Source of the DNA: a virus
Direction: 5' to 3' (one strand)
IMG/VR virus record: IMGVR_UViG_3300010042_000017
Span: 1 to 34,095 of that record
Length of the DNA: 34,095 nt
Part shown: positions 1,358 to 33,585 of the stretch, in pieces
Layout of the letters: each line of letters begins with the position of its first letter
Numbering within the stretch: position 1 is the stretch's first letter
Notes under the pieces: model-generated
Told to the model about the DNA's origin: nothing
What the model saw: only the letters and a program-made list of their open reading frames with translations
The model's database searches: none
Position numbers and translations under genes: made by a program

Positions 1358-3130
1358 ATGCGCGCACTTACCGATAGTTTGCAAAATGTGATATCCGGTC
1401 TTGGCGGAGGGTCGGACAAATCCGCCTACAACCGCTATTCCATGATAAACATGATCAGCCAGGGGCAGATTGACAGTGCTTACCGATCGTCTGGCATGTG
1501 CCGTAAGGTGCATGACCTAATACCTTCGGAGATGTGCCGCGCGGGTCGTGACTGGCAGGCTGATGATGCGGATATAACACTGCTGTCGGCTGCTGAGAAA
1601 TCCCTGCAATTATGGGCCAAACTGTACGATGCGGAACGCAAGGCACGCTTGTACGGCGGCGCTGCAATCCTGCTCGGTGTGGACGGTCAGGGTACGCCCG
1701 ACCAGCCGTTGGACCCCAGCCGCATTCGCAAGGGCCAGCTAAAATATGCAACGGTCCTGACGTGCCACCAGCTTTCATATCAAGATATAATTTACGACCC
1801 GAATAACCCGTATTTTGGCGAGCCAGAATATTACATGTTGCGCAACGGCACGATGGTGGATCCGTCGCGCGTCATCCCCGTCATCCGCCAGGCGCTCCCC
1901 AATAGCGACCTTGGGCAATATTGGGGCGACCCGCTGCTCATGTCGCTATGGTCCAGCCTGACGAGCAGTGACGCTGCGTACGGCTATACCGCGGCGCTCA
2001 TGGCCGAATTAAAATCAGATACGATAAGTATCCCCGGCCTCGGCAAGAACCTGACGACTGCCGAATATGAGGGGCGGCTGATGAAGCGTGTGCAAATGGC
2101 GCAGCTTTTCCAGTCGATGTTCAACGTAAAGCTGATCGATGGTGGCGACGGGTCCGAGGGTTCGGGCGAAACGTGGGATACGCGCCAGGTTGCGCTTACC
2201 GGCATTCCCGATCTGCTCACGGCGTTTGTGGCGCGTGTGGCGGCCGAAACGGACATTCCCGTTACGCGGCTGTCCGGTATCAGCCCCGGCGGCATGCAAT
2301 CGACGGGCAAAGGCGAGCAGCAGGATTTTGAAAAGCACATCGCCAGCCGCCAGACGACCGACCTTACGCCCGTGCTGGATAGGCTCGATGCGGTCATGCT
2401 GCCCAGCGTGTTTGGTACGGCCAAACCCGACGCATGGTGGTCATATGCACCACTTAGCCAGATGACTGAGAGCGAACGGGCCGACGTGCAGTTCAAACGT
2501 GCGCAAGCGTTCCAGATTCGCGTCAATAGCGGTGCGATCAATGCCGATGCGTTGGGTGAGGCCGAGGTTAACTCAATGATTGAGAGCGGCGATTACCCCG
2601 GTCTGGAGGAAGCTGTTGCCAAGCACGGCATGGAACCGGACGAGGTTGACTCGACCGAGATAGTGCCTGAGATTGAAACGATACCGCCCGCTCCGCTAAA
2701 TGACGCAGCACCCCGCACGCTGTACGTGCGCCGAGATGTGGTCAATCGTGCCGAAATTATTAAATGGGCAACCGCACAGGGCTTCACCGATATTGTGCCG
2801 GATTTGCACGTGACGATAATTTACAGTCGCGAGTCGGTCGATTGGATGAAAATTGGTGAAGCGTGGCAAAGCAAGATTGAAATTGGTGCAGGCGGCCCAC
2901 GTCTGGTGGAACCGCTCGGTGACGCCAAAGCCGTGCTGCTGTTTTCATCCAGCGAATTGAAATGGCGCAATGAACATATGCGTGAAATGGGCGCATCATT
3001 CGATTACAGCGAATACCAGCCGCACATGACGATCACGTATGGCGATGCGCCGGATTTGGCGACTGTCCAGCCGTACACGGGCAAAATTGTGCTGGGGCCG
3101 GAAATATTTGAGGAATTGCGTGCTAATTGA
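1358..3130 (+). CDS. DUF1073-type portal protein fused to a C-terminal Acb1-like 2H phosphoesterase
   Basis: The protein has 590 residues. Residues 1 to about 430 match the DUF1073 / Phage_portal_3 family, which forms the dodecameric portal through which DNA is packaged. Seen here are the Lys-Val-His-Asp-Leu-Ile-Pro start region and the late Pro-Val-Thr-Arg-Leu-Ser-Gly segment typical of portals. From about residue 448 a second domain begins. It carries two His-x-Thr motifs, His484-Val-Thr486 and His556-Met-Thr558, each inside a beta-strand pattern. This is the signature of 2H phosphoesterases and of the anti-CBASS nuclease Acb1, which cleaves cyclic nucleotide signals. Both motifs are intact, so the domain may be active. 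The link to CBASS is known for Acb1 relatives and is inferred here. Confidence 0.88.
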   Translation: MRALTDSLQNVISGLGGGSDKSAYNRYSMINMISQGQIDSAYRSSGMCRKVHDLIPSEMCRAGRDWQADDADITLLSAAEKSLQLWAKLYDAERKARLYGGAAILLGVDGQGTPDQPLDPSRIRKGQLKYATVLTCHQLSYQDIIYDPNNPYFGEPEYYMLRNGTMVDPSRVIPVIRQALPNSDLGQYWGDPLLMSLWSSLTSSDAAYGYTAALMAELKSDTISIPGLGKNLTTAEYEGRLMKRVQMAQLFQSMFNVKLIDGGDGSEGSGETWDTRQVALTGIPDLLTAFVARVAAETDIPVTRLSGISPGGMQSTGKGEQQDFEKHIASRQTTDLTPVLDRLDAVMLPSVFGTAKPDAWWSYAPLSQMTESERADVQFKRAQAFQIRVNSGAINADALGEAEVNSMIESGDYPGLEEAVAKHGMEPDEVDSTEIVPEIETIPPAPLNDAAPRTLYVRRDVVNRAEIIKWATAQGFTDIVPDLHVTIIYSRESVDWMKIGEAWQSKIEIGAGGPRLVEPLGDAKAVLLFSSSELKWRNEHMREMGASFDYSEYQPHMTITYGDAPDLATVQPYTGKIVLGPEIFEELRAN

Positions 3131-3956
3131 CCTACCGGCAGCCGCTCGCGCGCAAGGTATGCGTCGCAGCAAGCCCCTACCGCTCATCACGACCACACAA
3201 GAGCAACGTAACCGTCTGTACCGTTGCTACGCGCCGGTTGTGGAAGCATGGCGCGTCGGTGCGCGTGAGCAACTATTACCCGTGTACGGGCGCACCATAA
3301 CGTCGATAACGGACAGCATCCCCGAGTATGAGCAAGCCGAAGCGAACCTAGCCGAGCAGATAGCGCGGCTGGTGTTGAATATTACGGCCACAGGCGGCGT
3401 GCTGGATGCATGGGCGGTCAGTCTGGAGCAATGGCATCGCCGGCGGTTCGTGGCGGGCGCTTTGTCGGCAAGTGGCGTGGATCTGTCCGCCATGATCGGT
3501 CCGGCCGATGCGCGGCTAAGCGTTGAACAATCGATCGCGTGGAACACGTCGCTCATACGGGACGTATCGGACGAGACGCGCCGCCGCGTGGCAAATGCGT
3601 TTTTTGCGGGGTTCCAGGCACGTACGCCCGCGCGCGAGTTGGGCAAACAGATAGACGCAGCAGCCGGGCTGGGGCGCAAGCGGTCCGCTCGAATCGCGGC
3701 CGACCAAACGGTCAAGCTGGCGGCTTCGCTCGATGCGGAACGCCAACGGTCGGTCGGTATCGTTGAATGGGTGTGGAGGCACAGCGGCAAGGCCCACCCA
3801 CGGCTTGACCATGTGGCGCGCAACCTGAAGCATTATGGCGATACGGCGGCAATTGCGCGCGAGATTGGCGTGTTGCCCCCACCGGCCGATTTGCCAGGCC
3901 AATTGCCGTATTGTGGTTGTGTGCGGCAAAGTTTCTTGCGTCTTGACGAGGATTAA
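3120..3956 (+). CDS. minor head protein, SPP1 gp7 / Mu F family
   Basis: I place the start at GTG 3120, which overlaps the portal stop and has GAGGAA four bases upstream; ATG 3159 is an alternative and would remove 13 residues. The C-terminal part shows the family signature: a Trp-Arg-His-Ser-Gly-Lys-Ala-His-Pro-Arg segment about 60 residues from the end, and a final Pro-Tyr-Cys-Gly-Cys-Val-Arg. In the family these belong to the Mu F-like fold of minor capsid proteins, which sit inside the head at the portal. The position directly after the portal fits. A long antisense frame over this gene is a shadow. Confidence 0.85.
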   Translation: MLIDLPAAARAQGMRRSKPLPLITTTQEQRNRLYRCYAPVVEAWRVGAREQLLPVYGRTITSITDSIPEYEQAEANLAEQIARLVLNITATGGVLDAWAVSLEQWHRRRFVAGALSASGVDLSAMIGPADARLSVEQSIAWNTSLIRDVSDETRRRVANAFFAGFQARTPARELGKQIDAAAGLGRKRSARIAADQTVKLAASLDAERQRSVGIVEWVWRHSGKAHPRLDHVARNLKHYGDTAAIAREIGVLPPPADLPGQLPYCGCVRQSFLRLDED

Positions 3957-5278: not shown

Positions 5279-6391
5279 ATGCGCATTAACGTAGCAGATC
5301 GGATGGAAATTAGCGGCACCAGCCGCACGGCTGACGGCTACCTGGTGGCTGACGCTCCGTTCGCTCGGATTGGCATTTATGAATATGCCGGACGCGAAAT
5401 GGGCATGCCCGAAAAAACTACAGTGAAAATTCAGCGCGACGGCGATGTGGTATTCTCCGATGCCTCAATGGCGTCGTTTTCTCATAAACCTATCACGCTC
5501 GGCCACCCCCCGGTAAATGTAAACCGGGACAATTGGTCAAAATTTGCAAAAGGGTACACTGGCGATTGGGTGAAGCAGGACGGCAAAGTTGTTCGCACGC
5601 CTATGATCGTTAAAGCGGGGGATGCGATCGACGCCGTTGAGGCGGGAACGGTTGAACTATCCGCCGGGTATAGTGTCGAGGTGGATATGACCCCCGGCAT
5701 TAACGATGAAGGTGAAGCCTACGATGGCCGCATGGTAGGCGATATTATAGGCAATCATATCGCAATCGTACCGCGCGGACGTGCGGGCAGCATGTGCCGC
5801 ATTGGCGATGCTTGGGATTTTAACGACGACGACAGTAAGGAAACCCCCATGACGACAAAGACCATTACGTTTGACGGGCTGCCCCTGCTCGTCACCGATG
5901 CAGCTGAGGCCGCAATTGCAAAGCGTGACGCACAGTTGCTCGATGCTGCCGCAGCGCTGACCGCCGAGCAGGGCAAAGTTGCCACGCTGACCACCACGAT
6001 CAGCACGAAAGACGCTGAAATCGTGACGATCACCGCCGCTCGTGACGCCGCAGTGGTTACCCCCGCCAAGCTGGCCGAAATGGTCGCTGCACGGGCCGCA
6101 ACGGTTGCTGACGCCAAGGTGCTTGCGCCTTCGCTGACCGTGACCGACGCGATGACCGACGCAGATATTCGCAAGGGTGTCGTGCTGGCAAATGTGGGCG
6201 ATGCGGCCAAGGATTGGACCGACGAACAGTTTGCAGCATCGTTTGCCACGCTCCCCCGCGCGGGCGGTACGGCGATGACCGACGGGATCCGCGCCACTTT
6301 CCTCACACCGTCCGTTGGCTCACATGCCGCATCGGAATCGGCTTGGCAGGATAGCGTCAACGACCTCAATGCCAGCCGTACGGCCAAGTAA
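5279..6391 (+). CDS. DUF2213 head maturation protease / scaffold protein
   Basis: The protein has 370 residues. Residues 1 to about 185 match DUF2213, a herpesvirus-like prohead protease family in phages with DUF1073 portals. Visible landmarks are Ser-His-Lys-Pro-Ile-Thr near residue 69, Glu-Leu-Ser-Ala-Gly-Tyr-Ser near 127, and Gly-Asn-His-Ile-Ala-Ile-Val-Pro-Arg-Gly-Arg near 160, the likely Ser/His catalytic region. After about residue 190 the sequence changes to Ala/Thr-rich helices of the kind seen in scaffolds, with an internal in-frame ATG at 5849. The start ATG lacks a Shine-Dalgarno sequence and follows a candidate short-leader promoter. The capsid genes downstream fit the role. Confidence 0.82.
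   Translation: MRINVADRMEISGTSRTADGYLVADAPFARIGIYEYAGREMGMPEKTTVKIQRDGDVVFSDASMASFSHKPITLGHPPVNVNRDNWSKFAKGYTGDWVKQDGKVVRTPMIVKAGDAIDAVEAGTVELSAGYSVEVDMTPGINDEGEAYDGRMVGDIIGNHIAIVPRGRAGSMCRIGDAWDFNDDDSKETPMTTKTITFDGLPLLVTDAAEAAIAKRDAQLLDAAAALTAEQGKVATLTTTISTKDAEIVTITAARDAAVVTPAKLAEMVAARAATVADAKVLAPSLTVTDAMTDADIRKGVVLANVGDAAKDWTDEQFAASFATLPRAGGTAMTDGIRATFLTPSVGSHAASESAWQDSVNDLNASRTAK
5849..6391 (+). CDS. possible nested scaffold protein from an internal start
   Basis: Within the DUF2213 gene an in-frame ATG at 5849 is preceded by TAAGGAA (5836-5842), a usable Shine-Dalgarno sequence at about six bases. Translation from here would give a 180-residue protein covering only the Ala/Thr-rich helical C-terminal part. 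Lambda (C and Nu3) and related phages make their scaffold this way from the protease gene. The main gene's own start has no Shine-Dalgarno sequence, so the internal site looks better than the annotated one. Expression is inferred; the frame alone cannot prove it. Confidence 0.4.
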   Translation: MTTKTITFDGLPLLVTDAAEAAIAKRDAQLLDAAAALTAEQGKVATLTTTISTKDAEIVTITAARDAAVVTPAKLAEMVAARAATVADAKVLAPSLTVTDAMTDADIRKGVVLANVGDAAKDWTDEQFAASFATLPRAGGTAMTDGIRATFLTPSVGSHAASESAWQDSVNDLNASRTAK

Positions 6392-6403: not shown

Positions 6404-6853
6404 ATGGCACTTCAGACCTCTTATACGCAGTTTCAGATTCAGGGCTTCCCGGGCATGTCAATGGACATGTCGGAGTGGGACGCCTCCACTAAGACTGCCA
6501 CAGCAACGATCGCCTTTGGCGCCCCCGTCCAGCGTGTCGCTGGTGGCGGATGTGCACCACTGACCAGCGGCGAATATATCGGCATCGCGGCCGCACAGCA
6601 CCTCGTAACCGGCAACGGCGATACGTACGTGCAGTACGATAACGTGCCGGTCGTCAATGAAGGCGTGTGGGGCGGCATCGCCAATGCCGCCTTTGCCGAG
6701 GGCATCGCGGTCAATTGGGATAGCGCCACGGGTCGCTGGACCAACGCCTCGGTTGCTGGTGCAATCTATGCCGTCCCCGGTGTCGAGGCTGAAACGGCTT
6801 CAACCGGTATCGGCGCGTTTTTCATTGTGCGGCTCCGCCGCGTGCCCTCGTAA
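6404..6853 (+). CDS. head decoration / structural cement protein
   Basis: The gene encodes 149 residues and its ATG has AAGGA nine bases upstream. The sequence is beta-rich, with Val-Gln-Arg-Val-Ala-Gly-Gly-Gly-Cys and Tyr-Ile-Gly-Ile-Ala-Ala segments. These resemble the cement or decoration proteins that usually lie between the maturation protease and the DUF2184 major capsid gene. It has no signal peptide. It is placed 12 bases upstream of the major capsid gene in the same transcript. The family match is from pattern and position, so the exact class is uncertain. Confidence 0.65.
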   Translation: MALQTSYTQFQIQGFPGMSMDMSEWDASTKTATATIAFGAPVQRVAGGGCAPLTSGEYIGIAAAQHLVTGNGDTYVQYDNVPVVNEGVWGGIANAAFAEGIAVNWDSATGRWTNASVAGAIYAVPGVEAETASTGIGAFFIVRLRRVPS

Positions 6854-6865
6854 GGAGCCACTAAC

Positions 6866-7828
6866 ATGCAGAATTTTCTCGATGCTCCACAGGCTGCGCT
6901 GGCGTACCTGACAAACCAGGCATATTCGATCAATCCGGTCGTTTATAAAACGAAATTCCCCGAATTGGATTTCGGCAAGCTGGTCTATGTCGATACGAGC
7001 GCTCCCGAGTGGACGCCCGGTATCGTTACGTTCATTTCGAACGGCGTGGGTAAGGCCGAATGGCAAGCCGGCGGCGCCAAGGATGTGCCAAAGGCCGAAG
7101 TTCAGCGCGATATCTCGACCGTCAAGGCGCACATGGCCGCCATTGGTTACGGGTATAATATCGAGGAATTGGGCCAGTCTCAGTTGCTCGGCATGAACCT
7201 TCCCGCCGATAAGGCAATGGCCGCACGTCGCGCCTATCAGGAGTTCATGTGGAACGTATCCCTTACGGGTGACGCCACCAAGAATTTGCTGGGCCTGGCT
7301 AACTCGGCTGGCGTCACCACGGGCACCGCGCCTGCGGATGGCACCGGTTCGGTTACGACATGGTTTGACGGTTCGGGTAACCAGACCAAGACCAGCGCAC
7401 AGATTGTTCGCGACTTTAACGGCATGCTGACCGGCGTCTGGACCGGTTCGCTTACGGTTGAAATGGCGGATACGGTGCTTTTGCCGTACGATATCATTTC
7501 GTATCTTGGCGCAACGCCAATGTCCGGCACAAACAGCGAAACGATCCTTTCGTTCCTGCTTCGCAATAACATCTATACGGCAACCACGGGCCAGACGCTC
7601 CTGATTGTCGGTGTTCTCGGCCTCAACACAGCCGGTTCGGGTTCCACCCGCCGTGCGGTTGCGTACAAGAACGCTCAGGATGTTGTTAAGCTGCACCTTC
7701 CAATGCCGCACAAATTCCTGCCGGTTTATCAGGATGGCGCTTTTGCATACGAAGTGCCCGGCATCTTCCGGACCGCTGGTGTCGAGGTTATCCGCACTGG
7801 CGCATTCCGCTATCTGGACGGGATTTAA
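6866..7828 (+). CDS. major capsid protein, DUF2184 family
   Basis: The protein has 320 residues and its ATG follows AAGGAG. It resembles DUF2184 major capsid proteins, which have the HK97 fold and assemble the shell. Recognisable stretches are the N-terminal Ala-Leu-Ala-Tyr-Leu-Thr-Asn-Gln with an aromatic Tyr-Ser-Ile-Asn, Gly-Tyr-Gly-Tyr-Asn-Ile-Glu-Glu-Leu near residue 95, Ala-Ala-Arg-Arg-Ala-Tyr-Gln-Glu near 118, and a C-terminal Ala-Gly-Val-Glu-Val-Ile-Arg. The gene follows protease and decoration genes as expected. Smooth codon use and strong ribosome binding suggest high expression. A 303-codon antisense frame here is a shadow. Confidence 0.87.
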   Translation: MQNFLDAPQAALAYLTNQAYSINPVVYKTKFPELDFGKLVYVDTSAPEWTPGIVTFISNGVGKAEWQAGGAKDVPKAEVQRDISTVKAHMAAIGYGYNIEELGQSQLLGMNLPADKAMAARRAYQEFMWNVSLTGDATKNLLGLANSAGVTTGTAPADGTGSVTTWFDGSGNQTKTSAQIVRDFNGMLTGVWTGSLTVEMADTVLLPYDIISYLGATPMSGTNSETILSFLLRNNIYTATTGQTLLIVGVLGLNTAGSGSTRRAVAYKNAQDVVKLHLPMPHKFLPVYQDGAFAYEVPGIFRTAGVEVIRTGAFRYLDGI

Positions 7829-31034: not shown

Positions 31035-31050
31035 TTGACGGTCCCGTCAA
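31035..31050. promoter_or_regulatory. TTGAC-N6-GTCAA dyad (copy 6), promoter of the 30996 chain
   Basis: This is a perfect dyad between the polymerase gene and the next minus-strand gene. The polymerase stop codon (31047-31049) lies inside the dyad. On the minus strand TTGACG is followed after 17 bases by GATATG, then TGATTCGCA, a string also found at the same distance in the minus-strand promoter at 12943. It serves only minus-strand genes here. Confidence 0.6.
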
Positions 31051-33266
31051 CCCTTACGGTATCGGCGCCCTCTCCAGCCACCCGATGCACGTATAGGCCA
31101 AGTCGTGGCGTAGCTTGGCATCGTTGCCATGATCCGTTCCGCTTCCTCGACACTGCCCCAGCCAGCGGGCACCTCAAATACGTCCTCGTCATACACGCCC
31201 AGCACCATTCGATACCCCGCAGCCCATGCCGCTTCTATCCCAAAGCGTTGTATGTCGTGCGCCACGGCCTGGTCGATATTCTCGAAAACGCGGCTTCCCC
31301 ACGTGTCCATGCAAACCCACCCGACCATACCGTATTTCGGGTTGCTGTTTTCAGTCCAATAGCTGATCGCCAACGTGCCGGGGCGTTTCTCACTCGGCCG
31401 CAACGACGGGTGATGATAGGTTAATTCCCGGCCTGACAACAGTCGGATTTTTAACATGGTGCCACGCATGAAAAACTGGCACCCGATACATTCGAATACC
31501 ATGCCCGAGTTTTGGATCGCTTGAATAACAGCGCCTTCAACACCGTACAGTCGCGGCACAAATTGGCCGAATTTCCAATCGCCTTGCCCACCCCATGATT
31601 CGACAATTGCCGGGGATGCCGCGCGCCATGCTAGAATTATCCGTTTAATGTCATCGTCGGTCTTATTCGCCTCGTCGGGGTCAAAAGCCCGCCAAGCACC
31701 AATCCACCCGCCGTAACCTAGCGCCAACTCGGCGACCTTACCGATGTTTTGCCGGTCGGGGTGATGTTCTCCATGCAGGGCGGCGTATTCGGTATAAAAT
31801 TCGTATGTGCGGCCGGTTATCTTGGCGGCCGATTCCAGATAGATGTCCCGTTTGGCGTTGAACGTGTCGATGCGCCATTGCTCTCCGGTCATGCATGCGG
31901 CCACTACCGCCTCAATTGCGCTATAATCCGAGGCGATAAGATCCATTCCCTCCCCAGCGATGAACATGCCCCGCACGCAGCCGGATATGGCAAGCAACGC
32001 GTCACCGAAAAACCACTCAACCAACTCCAGCGAGCGGCTGGCTATAATTTCCAGCACATGGTCGGCCATTTCGGGCTTCCATGCCAAACGCTGCACCGGA
32101 TGGGGCAAGGCGCCGCACCAGGGGCAAGCGTTATGGGTAGGGAGCGCCGGGCGGGCGCAGGCGTAGCATGTGGACAGCTTAGGCCCGGCTTTCGGCAAAT
32201 TGAGCGGTTGCGGCCCGCTGCCGGTGGGACGACCGGTTCGGGCGCCGTGGTGTACGATCAAATTGCGTAACCGGTTATCGTCGCTGCACTGATTTTCAAT
32301 CGCTATCAGTTTCTTGACGCTGGCCGACCCGACCGCTGCGCGGCATTCCAGCACGGCGCGGGCGTCGGCGGGTAAGTCATCGCGTGCTAGGGCTTGCTCC
32401 ACCGCGTCACTATCGAGCGAGTGCATATAAACGCCCTTAGCAGATAGCCATCCGACCAATTTTTGCACTTGGGACGGCTCAAGACCGCCAGTCAACCCTC
32501 GGCAAAGCGCCCCGTATTTTTCAAGTGCTTGGTTTAACACAGCGATACAATCCCGAACGGCCGCCCGATCGATGGCAATGCCCCGCCAGTTTATTTCCTG
32601 GTCAAGCAGCCAGAAACGCAATTCGGCCGGCGTCATCGGCTCCATGCGGTCGGACGCGGAACACTCGGATAAAACGTCGGTGTCGCAATATTGCTGGTAT
32701 CGTTCAAATTCGGCGGGTTCATCCGACGGCAAAATGCGGCGTCGCGGGTCCGCCTTGGTCGGATTGCGCGGCATGGAAAATTTAGTCATCAACCGCTTGC
32801 CCTCGGGATCCTTCAAAATCGGGGACCCGGTGGCTTGGGCCAGTTTTTCAAGGCCGCCGGGGTAGCTGTTGACGCGCGCCGTTGCCATGCTGCAGCGGAT
32901 GCGGTCGGGTCGGAGCGCGGGAAAGCCGTACCGGGGCGTCAAGACGTGGTGGAATGCGAGGCGTTCAAACATCGCGTTGTGAAATTCGATCTCCCCGCCC
33001 GCTTCGATCCATTCGATAAGCGGGGTTGGCAGTGGATCGCCGGGCCGCCACCGCATGGTGAAGCCCTCGGGCCAATCCGGCAGGCGGTAGGAGAGGGTCA
33101 GGACGTCAGCGGTCGGGTGCTCCCAATAGCGATTTGCGCCAACGACCGGCAATCCCTTCTTGCCAGCGGGCGCACCGGGTGGACCGACCCACCGTTGCCG
33201 AGCTTCGTCCCAAAAATAACCAGCTTCGCTATACGATTCAACGTCACCCGTTGCATGGTCACCCAT
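31047..33266 (-). CDS. family A DNA polymerase with 3'-5' exonuclease domain
   Basis: The protein has 739 residues from ATG 33266 (GTG 33293 would add nine). Numbering from the longer form: exonuclease motifs Asp17-Val-Glu19, His-Asn-Ala-Met-Phe-Glu at 105-110 and Tyr-Cys-Asp-Thr-Asp-Val at 202-207. Polymerase motif A is Asp-Tyr-Ser-Ala-Ile-Glu at 456-461. Motif B is Arg514 to Lys519 and Tyr527-Gly-Gly. Motif C is Tyr-Asp702-Glu703 where the usual form is His-Asp-Glu. Four Cys at 376, 379, 390 and 393 form a zinc ribbon inserted before the palm. It replicates the phage genome. Its start overlaps the DUF6378-like gene by eight bases. Confidence 0.87.
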   Translation of the reverse strand: MGDHATGDVESYSEAGYFWDEARQRWVGPPGAPAGKKGLPVVGANRYWEHPTADVLTLSYRLPDWPEGFTMRWRPGDPLPTPLIEWIEAGGEIEFHNAMFERLAFHHVLTPRYGFPALRPDRIRCSMATARVNSYPGGLEKLAQATGSPILKDPEGKRLMTKFSMPRNPTKADPRRRILPSDEPAEFERYQQYCDTDVLSECSASDRMEPMTPAELRFWLLDQEINWRGIAIDRAAVRDCIAVLNQALEKYGALCRGLTGGLEPSQVQKLVGWLSAKGVYMHSLDSDAVEQALARDDLPADARAVLECRAAVGSASVKKLIAIENQCSDDNRLRNLIVHHGARTGRPTGSGPQPLNLPKAGPKLSTCYACARPALPTHNACPWCGALPHPVQRLAWKPEMADHVLEIIASRSLELVEWFFGDALLAISGCVRGMFIAGEGMDLIASDYSAIEAVVAACMTGEQWRIDTFNAKRDIYLESAAKITGRTYEFYTEYAALHGEHHPDRQNIGKVAELALGYGGWIGAWRAFDPDEANKTDDDIKRIILAWRAASPAIVESWGGQGDWKFGQFVPRLYGVEGAVIQAIQNSGMVFECIGCQFFMRGTMLKIRLLSGRELTYHHPSLRPSEKRPGTLAISYWTENSNPKYGMVGWVCMDTWGSRVFENIDQAVAHDIQRFGIEAAWAAGYRMVLGVYDEDVFEVPAGWGSVEEAERIMATMPSYATTWPIRASGGWRGRRYRKG

Positions 33267-33585
33267 GAGGATCGACGTACCGCGCACTGCCACCAGCCAG
33301 CGGTAACGGCCGGGTCAGTTTATCATCCGGTGCGCACCGGTCCTCGACCAGCTTGGCGTATCCGGCAATGTCATGCCAATTGTCGCGATACTCAGGGTCG
33401 CCGGACAGCACTCGGGCAATCTTGTCGGCAATGACGGTCAACGCCTGGCGCTTGTCCGCCGTAAGACGCTCCCATCCCGACGTATTACGCATATCGGTTT
33501 GGAGCGTTTGCGCGATTGCAGCGTGGTCGGTAAAGTCGCCGTAGCGTGCGCCACGCTCGGCTAGTGTAGCATTTATATCAGACAT
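33259..33585 (-). CDS. DUF6378-like phage protein
   Basis: The gene encodes 108 residues from ATG 33585, with AAGGAT about eight bases upstream. The segment Ala-Glu-Arg-Gly-Ala-Arg-Tyr-Gly-Asp-Phe-Thr-Asp-His-Ala near the start, Lys-Arg-Gln-Ala-Leu-Thr-Val-Ile-Ala-Asp-Lys-Ile-Ala-Arg, and Asp-Asn-Trp-His-Asp-Ile-Ala-Gly-Tyr-Ala match DUF6378, a small helical protein common in replication regions of phages. Acidic and His residues could bind metal and nucleotide, as in the related all-alpha nucleotide hydrolases, but this is an inference. Confidence 0.75.
   Translation of the reverse strand: MSDINATLAERGARYGDFTDHAAIAQTLQTDMRNTSGWERLTADKRQALTVIADKIARVLSGDPEYRDNWHDIAGYAKLVEDRCAPDDKLTRPLPLAGGSARYVDPHG

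Follow-up and report, generated by a model that had tools for sequence, protein, structure and literature searches.

A phage portal protein with a linker-tethered, putative Acb1-type phosphodiesterase domain that is exchanged between portals as a cassette

Acb1 has been described as a stand-alone protein that is made during infection. In the Acb1 protein of phage T4, residues H44, T46, H113 and T115 are catalytic, Y12, W74, F107 and W147 stack on the bases of the bound nucleotide and E141 contacts the adenine (Hobbs et al., PMC9117128). Activity on cGAMP and cAAA was seen for nine out of nine additional homologues of Acb1, and in T4 infection the activity emerges at about 15 min, alongside the late CBASS response (PMC9117128). 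The joining of an Acb1 domain to a phage portal is already visible in the portal of the Pseudanabaena phage Pam3 (8hds) and in family databases. A literature search that covered few subscription papers found none on portal-fused Acb1, on its exchange from portal to portal or on fusions to proteases.

Here we analyzed a protein with the same two-domain architecture as the Pam3 portal, which is encoded in a 34,095-nucleotide stretch of viral DNA (IMG/VR record IMGVR_UViG_3300010042_000017), referred to as the window in the following. The gene, its parts and the head genes downstream of it are:

1358..3130, plus strand: portal-Acb1 fusion gene, complete ORF of 590 aa from ATG to TGA
1466..2515, plus strand: Phage_portal_3 (DUF1073, PF06381) domain, residues 37–386 (Pfam E 2.5e-87; 8hds Z 28.4)
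2627..2707, plus strand: flexible linker, residues 424–450 (pLDDT <50 for most of 430–448)
2714..3124, plus strand: Acb1 2H phosphodiesterase domain, residues 453–589 (Pfam PF23474 E 1.9e-32; 7t27 Z 15.6)
2807..2815, plus strand: catalytic motif 1, H484-V-T486, corresponding to T4 H44 and T46 (alignment to T4 Acb1)
2909..2911, plus strand: E518 at the T4 W74 position, a departure from Acb1 (alignment)
3023..3031, plus strand: catalytic motif 2, H556-M-T558, corresponding to T4 H113 and T115 (alignment to T4 Acb1)
3110..3112, plus strand: E585, predicted counterpart of the adenine-contacting T4 E141 (sequence alignment)
3120..3956, plus strand: head morphogenesis gene (phrog_324 E 1.1e-26), GTG start overlapping the portal stop
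5279..6391, plus strand: DUF2213 head maturation protease (Pfam E 6.7e-48; phrog_530 E 1.1e-77)
6404..6853, plus strand: capsid cement protein of the E217 gp24/Pam3 gp6 type
6866..7828, plus strand: major capsid protein

The original prediction that this gene encodes a portal with a C-terminal Acb1-like 2H fold is substantiated by both profile matches, by the superpositions on 8hds and 7t27 and by the position of the gene in a head module, with the morphogenesis, maturation protease, cement and major capsid genes downstream. Both His-x-Thr motifs were read from the ORF at residues 484–486 and 556–558, where they had been predicted. The link between DUF1073 and Acb1 likewise shows up in the family databases, as two Pfam matches on one protein and in the naming by InterPro. 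The C-terminal domain scores 112 bits against PF23474 (cut-off 27), while gp57B of phage T2, an Acb1 of the T4 type, reaches 203 bits. Hence, this model was not built only on portal fusions. Among the sequences of the PDB, the Pam3 portal matches over nearly the full length including the Acb1 part (E 9e-105), and FBB1 Acb1 (7t26) gives a match that is independent of the portal (E 1e-7). The Pfam models for LigT/2',5' RNA ligases (PF02834, PF13563) gave no match at E values up to 1 for the window protein; some fused relatives match them weakly, far below Acb1. NCBIfam returned only the portal family HI1409 for the window protein, below the cut-off of that family, and a Pfam match to Flavi_NS5_thumb (E 0.22) was dismissed as chance. 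PHROG 755 (57B/Acb1) retains the name 'RNA ligase', which many T4-like records also bear.

The AlphaFold model of the window protein, which was built from 93 fused proteins, has a mean pLDDT of 89.8 and consists of two confident parts with a disordered linker (about residues 424–450) between them. For the Acb1 domain, the pLDDT means of 10-residue blocks lie between 89 and 98. Comparison of the predicted fold with Acb1 had been proposed as a check, and residues 453–590 indeed adopt a 2H phosphoesterase fold in the model, superimposing on the Acb1–cGAMP structure 7t27 over 128 residues with an rmsd of 1.9 Å. The portal part in turn superimposes on Pam3 8hds. The sequence of the 8hds chain comprises 621 residues, of which 442 are modelled, and the alignment extends up to residue 417; the Acb1 part is thus missing from the Pam3 portal structure, for which flexible attachment or proteolytic loss are possible reasons that fit equally. 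Because the C-terminal barrel of the homologous E217 portal projects into the head (PMC10329688), the Acb1 domain is most likely directed towards the inside of the procapsid. By analogy to the 12 chains of the 8hds entry, the window portal would be dodecameric in the virion. That about twelve portal-borne copies could enter the cell, as had been suggested, found no such backing, as we found no evidence for injection, the E217 barrel faces the head and the Pam3 domain is not in the model. Injection of the Acb1 domain together with the DNA is possible but unsupported.

The window domain shares the 2H fold and the HxT/HxT tetrad with T4/FBB1 Acb1 (gp57B; 7t26, 7t27; 30% identity), but is fused to a portal, whereas the T4 and FBB1 enzymes are free-standing proteins of about 150 aa. 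When aligned to T4 Acb1, all four residues of the tetrad are present as H484, T486, H556 and T558. Furthermore, Y456 takes the position of T4 Y12, Y550 that of F107 and E585 apparently that of the adenine-contacting E141. Two of the four base-stacking aromatics are absent, since E518 stands in place of W74 and the window protein ends before the position of the lid residue W147. The domain had been described as intact, which holds for its catalytic tetrad and needs qualifying for its stacking residues. Judged from the sequence, the catalytic chemistry is very probably kept, while the base pocket appears changed relative to T4 Acb1; given E518 and the missing lid, substrate or efficiency may differ from those of the T4 enzyme. 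W496 or W503 might stand in for the missing aromatics. The GTG start of the head morphogenesis gene overlaps the last bases of the portal gene (window 3120–3130), and the latter stops short of the lid tryptophan position. The portal–Acb1 proteins of Rhizobium phage RHph_TM3_3_3 and Pseudomonas phage psageK9, annotated as portal or hypothetical, resemble the window protein in having no lid tryptophan; psageK9 is 56% identical to it in the domain and 32.5% in the portal. Pam3, in contrast, retains the lid tryptophan and carries HxS as its second motif.

To place these residues in a wider context, we aligned 160 Acb1 domains, which represent 154 loci and six reference fusions and include some near-identical sequences. 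H484, T486, H556 and E582 are invariant in all 160, and position 558 is occupied by threonine in 103 and by serine in 57. Glutamate is found at the T4 W74 position in 137 of the 160 and at the E141 position in 115, while at the lid position 76 have an aligned tryptophan and 65 a gap. One of the search patterns included motif 1, the conservation of which is hence partly selected, whereas motif 2 was in no pattern; the 29 loci found by the other pattern alone all have HVT as motif 1 as well. In the alignment of the 93 fused proteins, 24 of the 27 invariant columns fall into the Acb1 domain. The median dN/dS, computed on pairs that are 80–99% identical, is 0.096 for the domain and 0.098 for the portal. 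The Acb1 domain is thus under strong purifying selection. We also considered a free Acb1 made from an internal translation start and rejected it: an in-frame ATG or GTG with a Shine-Dalgarno-like sequence near the domain occurs in 17 of 140 loci, compared to 19.4 in control stretches, and none is present in the window. A free domain would therefore need proteolysis.

Comparison of the two parts of these proteins reveals that they do not share their history. The window protein and that of RHph_TM3_3_3 share 67% of the domain and only 34% of the portal, while the L002 protein and that of RHph_TM3_3_3 share 83% of the portal and 58% of the domain. Over 10,011 pairs, the portal thirds correlate with each other (Spearman 0.68–0.82) far better than with the Acb1 domain (0.19–0.28). 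An identity of at least 80% in the last portal third is combined with less than 65% in the domain in 183 pairs, compared to 0–3 pairs with the same contrast between neighbouring portal thirds, although pairs are not independent and these counts describe a pattern, not events. Portal and domain trees reject each other in the AU test (lnL difference 1505 and 5341; fast trees and fewer replicates than recommended). At the DNA level, 50 pairs are similar across the domain and dissimilar in the 5' portal, 24 of which also lack similarity just downstream; in the pair L056/L065, a match of 89% begins 45 nt ahead of the domain, ends 10 nt short of the stop and is confined to this stretch. That the domain simply evolves slowly is ruled out as the cause of such high identities by DNA identity of up to 89% across the domain between portals that share 37% of their protein sequence, and also by the reverse case of L085/L036 (portal 95%, domain 58%). 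General mosaicism inside the portal is ruled out because the portal thirds agree with each other. Hence, the Acb1 domain has been repeatedly exchanged between portals as a cassette. Phage_portal_3 portals of the same fold and the same place in the head module, namely those of E217, T1 and the loci L004 and L005, have no C-terminal phosphodiesterase, and the absence from L004 and L005 indicates that portals do not need Acb1.

While the domain is fused to a portal of the Phage_portal_3 type in 139 of the 154 loci, it also occurs on other procapsid proteins. Portal_Mu portals and HK97-type Phage_portal portals carry it at four loci each, always at the C-terminus (assigned by Pfam for two of each and by similarity for the rest). 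In L155, it precedes a Peptidase_S78 prohead protease (Pfam) as an N-terminal domain, and in L159–L161 it likewise precedes a DUF2213 protease, with an adjacent portal that lacks the domain encoded in the same locus. These fusions resemble the window in placing Acb1 on a procapsid protein and differ in the terminus and in the use of a protease instead of the portal; the DUF2213 protease of the window belongs to the family that bears Acb1 in L159–L161. The Portal_Mu, Phage_portal and DUF2213 groups each form one clade of the domain tree. Together with the Peptidase_S78 fusion, these separate clades mean that fusion of the domain to procapsid proteins took place on several occasions. On the Rhizobium rhizogenes K84 plasmid pAtK84c (10410–10847; L169:4001–4438), a free-standing gene of about 145 aa that matches Acb1 is located near repA and an integrase, and similar matches are found on other Rhizobium and Agrobacterium plasmids. 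This gene is annotated as 'phage prohead protease', a name probably inherited from the Acb1–protease fusions. A 158-aa Acb1-like frame in Rhizobium mongolense (L164:3884–4357), in which the middle of the domain is unmatched, looks like a decayed remnant.

We further analyzed the lysogens for SMODS, the nucleotidyltransferase domain of CD-NTases, which marks CD-NTases and not whole CBASS operons. SMODS was found above the cut-off in 15 of 50 lysogens, and in 28 of 297 and 39 of 346 control genomes from the order and the family of G001, respectively. Among the 27 lysogens assigned to the Rhizobiaceae from their names, ten encode a CD-NTase, compared to 39 of the 346 control genomes (p 0.0009; p 0.0004 when lysogens also seen in the control are removed), which is a correlation over related genomes of one family and is limited by draft quality. 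Type I restriction, employed as a control defence, is not enriched (8/27 versus 125/346, p 0.54), indicating that the CD-NTase excess does not reflect a general load of defence genes. The order-level Portal_3 sample consisted of six genomes, too few for a comparison of CD-NTases between portals with and without Acb1.

We consider it probable that the portal subunit carries a catalytically competent Acb1-type enzyme on a flexible tether, which cleaves adenine-containing cyclic nucleotides in the cytoplasm during the late phase; the original prediction had been cautious in treating the enzymatic activity of this protein as inferred, and this caution was justified. Cleavage of cyclic di- or trinucleotides would occur 3' of adenosine as in T4 Acb1, at a time when portal subunits and procapsids build up and CBASS typically responds. 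Expression with the head genes would couple signal destruction to head assembly in time and place, with no need for a gene under its own regulation, and swapping of the cassette would resemble that of an accessory counter-defence module. The exchange between dissimilar portals and the fusions to other head-assembly proteins suggest a head-attached way of disarming CBASS. The domain might instead be an active 2H phosphodiesterase for another substrate, such as a cyclic nucleotide unrelated to CBASS or the 2',3'-cyclic or 2',5'-linked ends of RNA or tRNA. Enzymes of the 2H superfamily act on varied substrates, the T4 W74 position is E518 here and glutamate in most relatives, the lid tryptophan is missing from the window protein and many others, and PHROGs name the T4-type family 'RNA ligase'. 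The profile match, however, is to Acb1 and not to LigT or RNA ligase, the Y12, F107 and E141 positions are kept and the lysogens are enriched in CD-NTases, so that we regard another substrate as unlikely.

A role of the domain in the virion itself has to be weighed as well. As part of a virion protein whose C-terminus faces the head lumen in E217, it could serve portal assembly, scaffold binding or DNA packing, with its activity irrelevant; this is very improbable, given that the catalytic histidines never change in an otherwise variable domain, that it is exchanged independently of the portal body and found on unrelated proteins, that related portals (L004, L005) do without it and that a disordered linker connects it to the portal. 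Alternatively, the head maturation protease could release it from the portal, and the freed domain would stay in the head until it leaves with the DNA and acts immediately on infection. The absence of the domain from the Pam3 virion portal model, the maturation protease encoded in the window and the relatives that bear the domain on this very protease would all fit such a delivered enzyme. We recognised no cleavage site in the portal, though, flexibility explains the missing Pam3 density equally well, T4 Acb1 is functional upon synthesis in the cell and release would depend on proteolysis as there is no internal start, which renders delivery improbable.

More tentatively, Acb1 counter-defence may have been built repeatedly into the procapsid, as signal destruction by an enzyme tethered to the portal or protease at the assembling head, or by packaging and delivery with the genome, with the module moving between unrelated portals; we hold this to be conceivable but somewhat doubtful. 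If true, counter-defence can be part of the virion assembly line, being attached to head maturation proteases and to portals of at least three families. It would also offer a testable case of signal destruction coupled to head assembly, a stage that is sensed by several defences: a CBASS system senses the prohead protease (as reviewed in PMC12409349) and SpbK senses a portal (PMC12847820). Moreover, it would be a warning that essential structural genes may harbour anti-defence domains which escape gene-by-gene annotation.

The portals nearest to that of the window (L115 and L140) come from Phenylobacterium and an alphaproteobacterial MAG, with 42.6% and 38.5% identity, respectively, hinting at an alphaproteobacterial host. 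On the minus strand, the window further contains an ORF of 748 aa (31047–33293) that matches DNA polymerase family A with 31.5 bits, slightly below the Pfam cut-off of 34.3.
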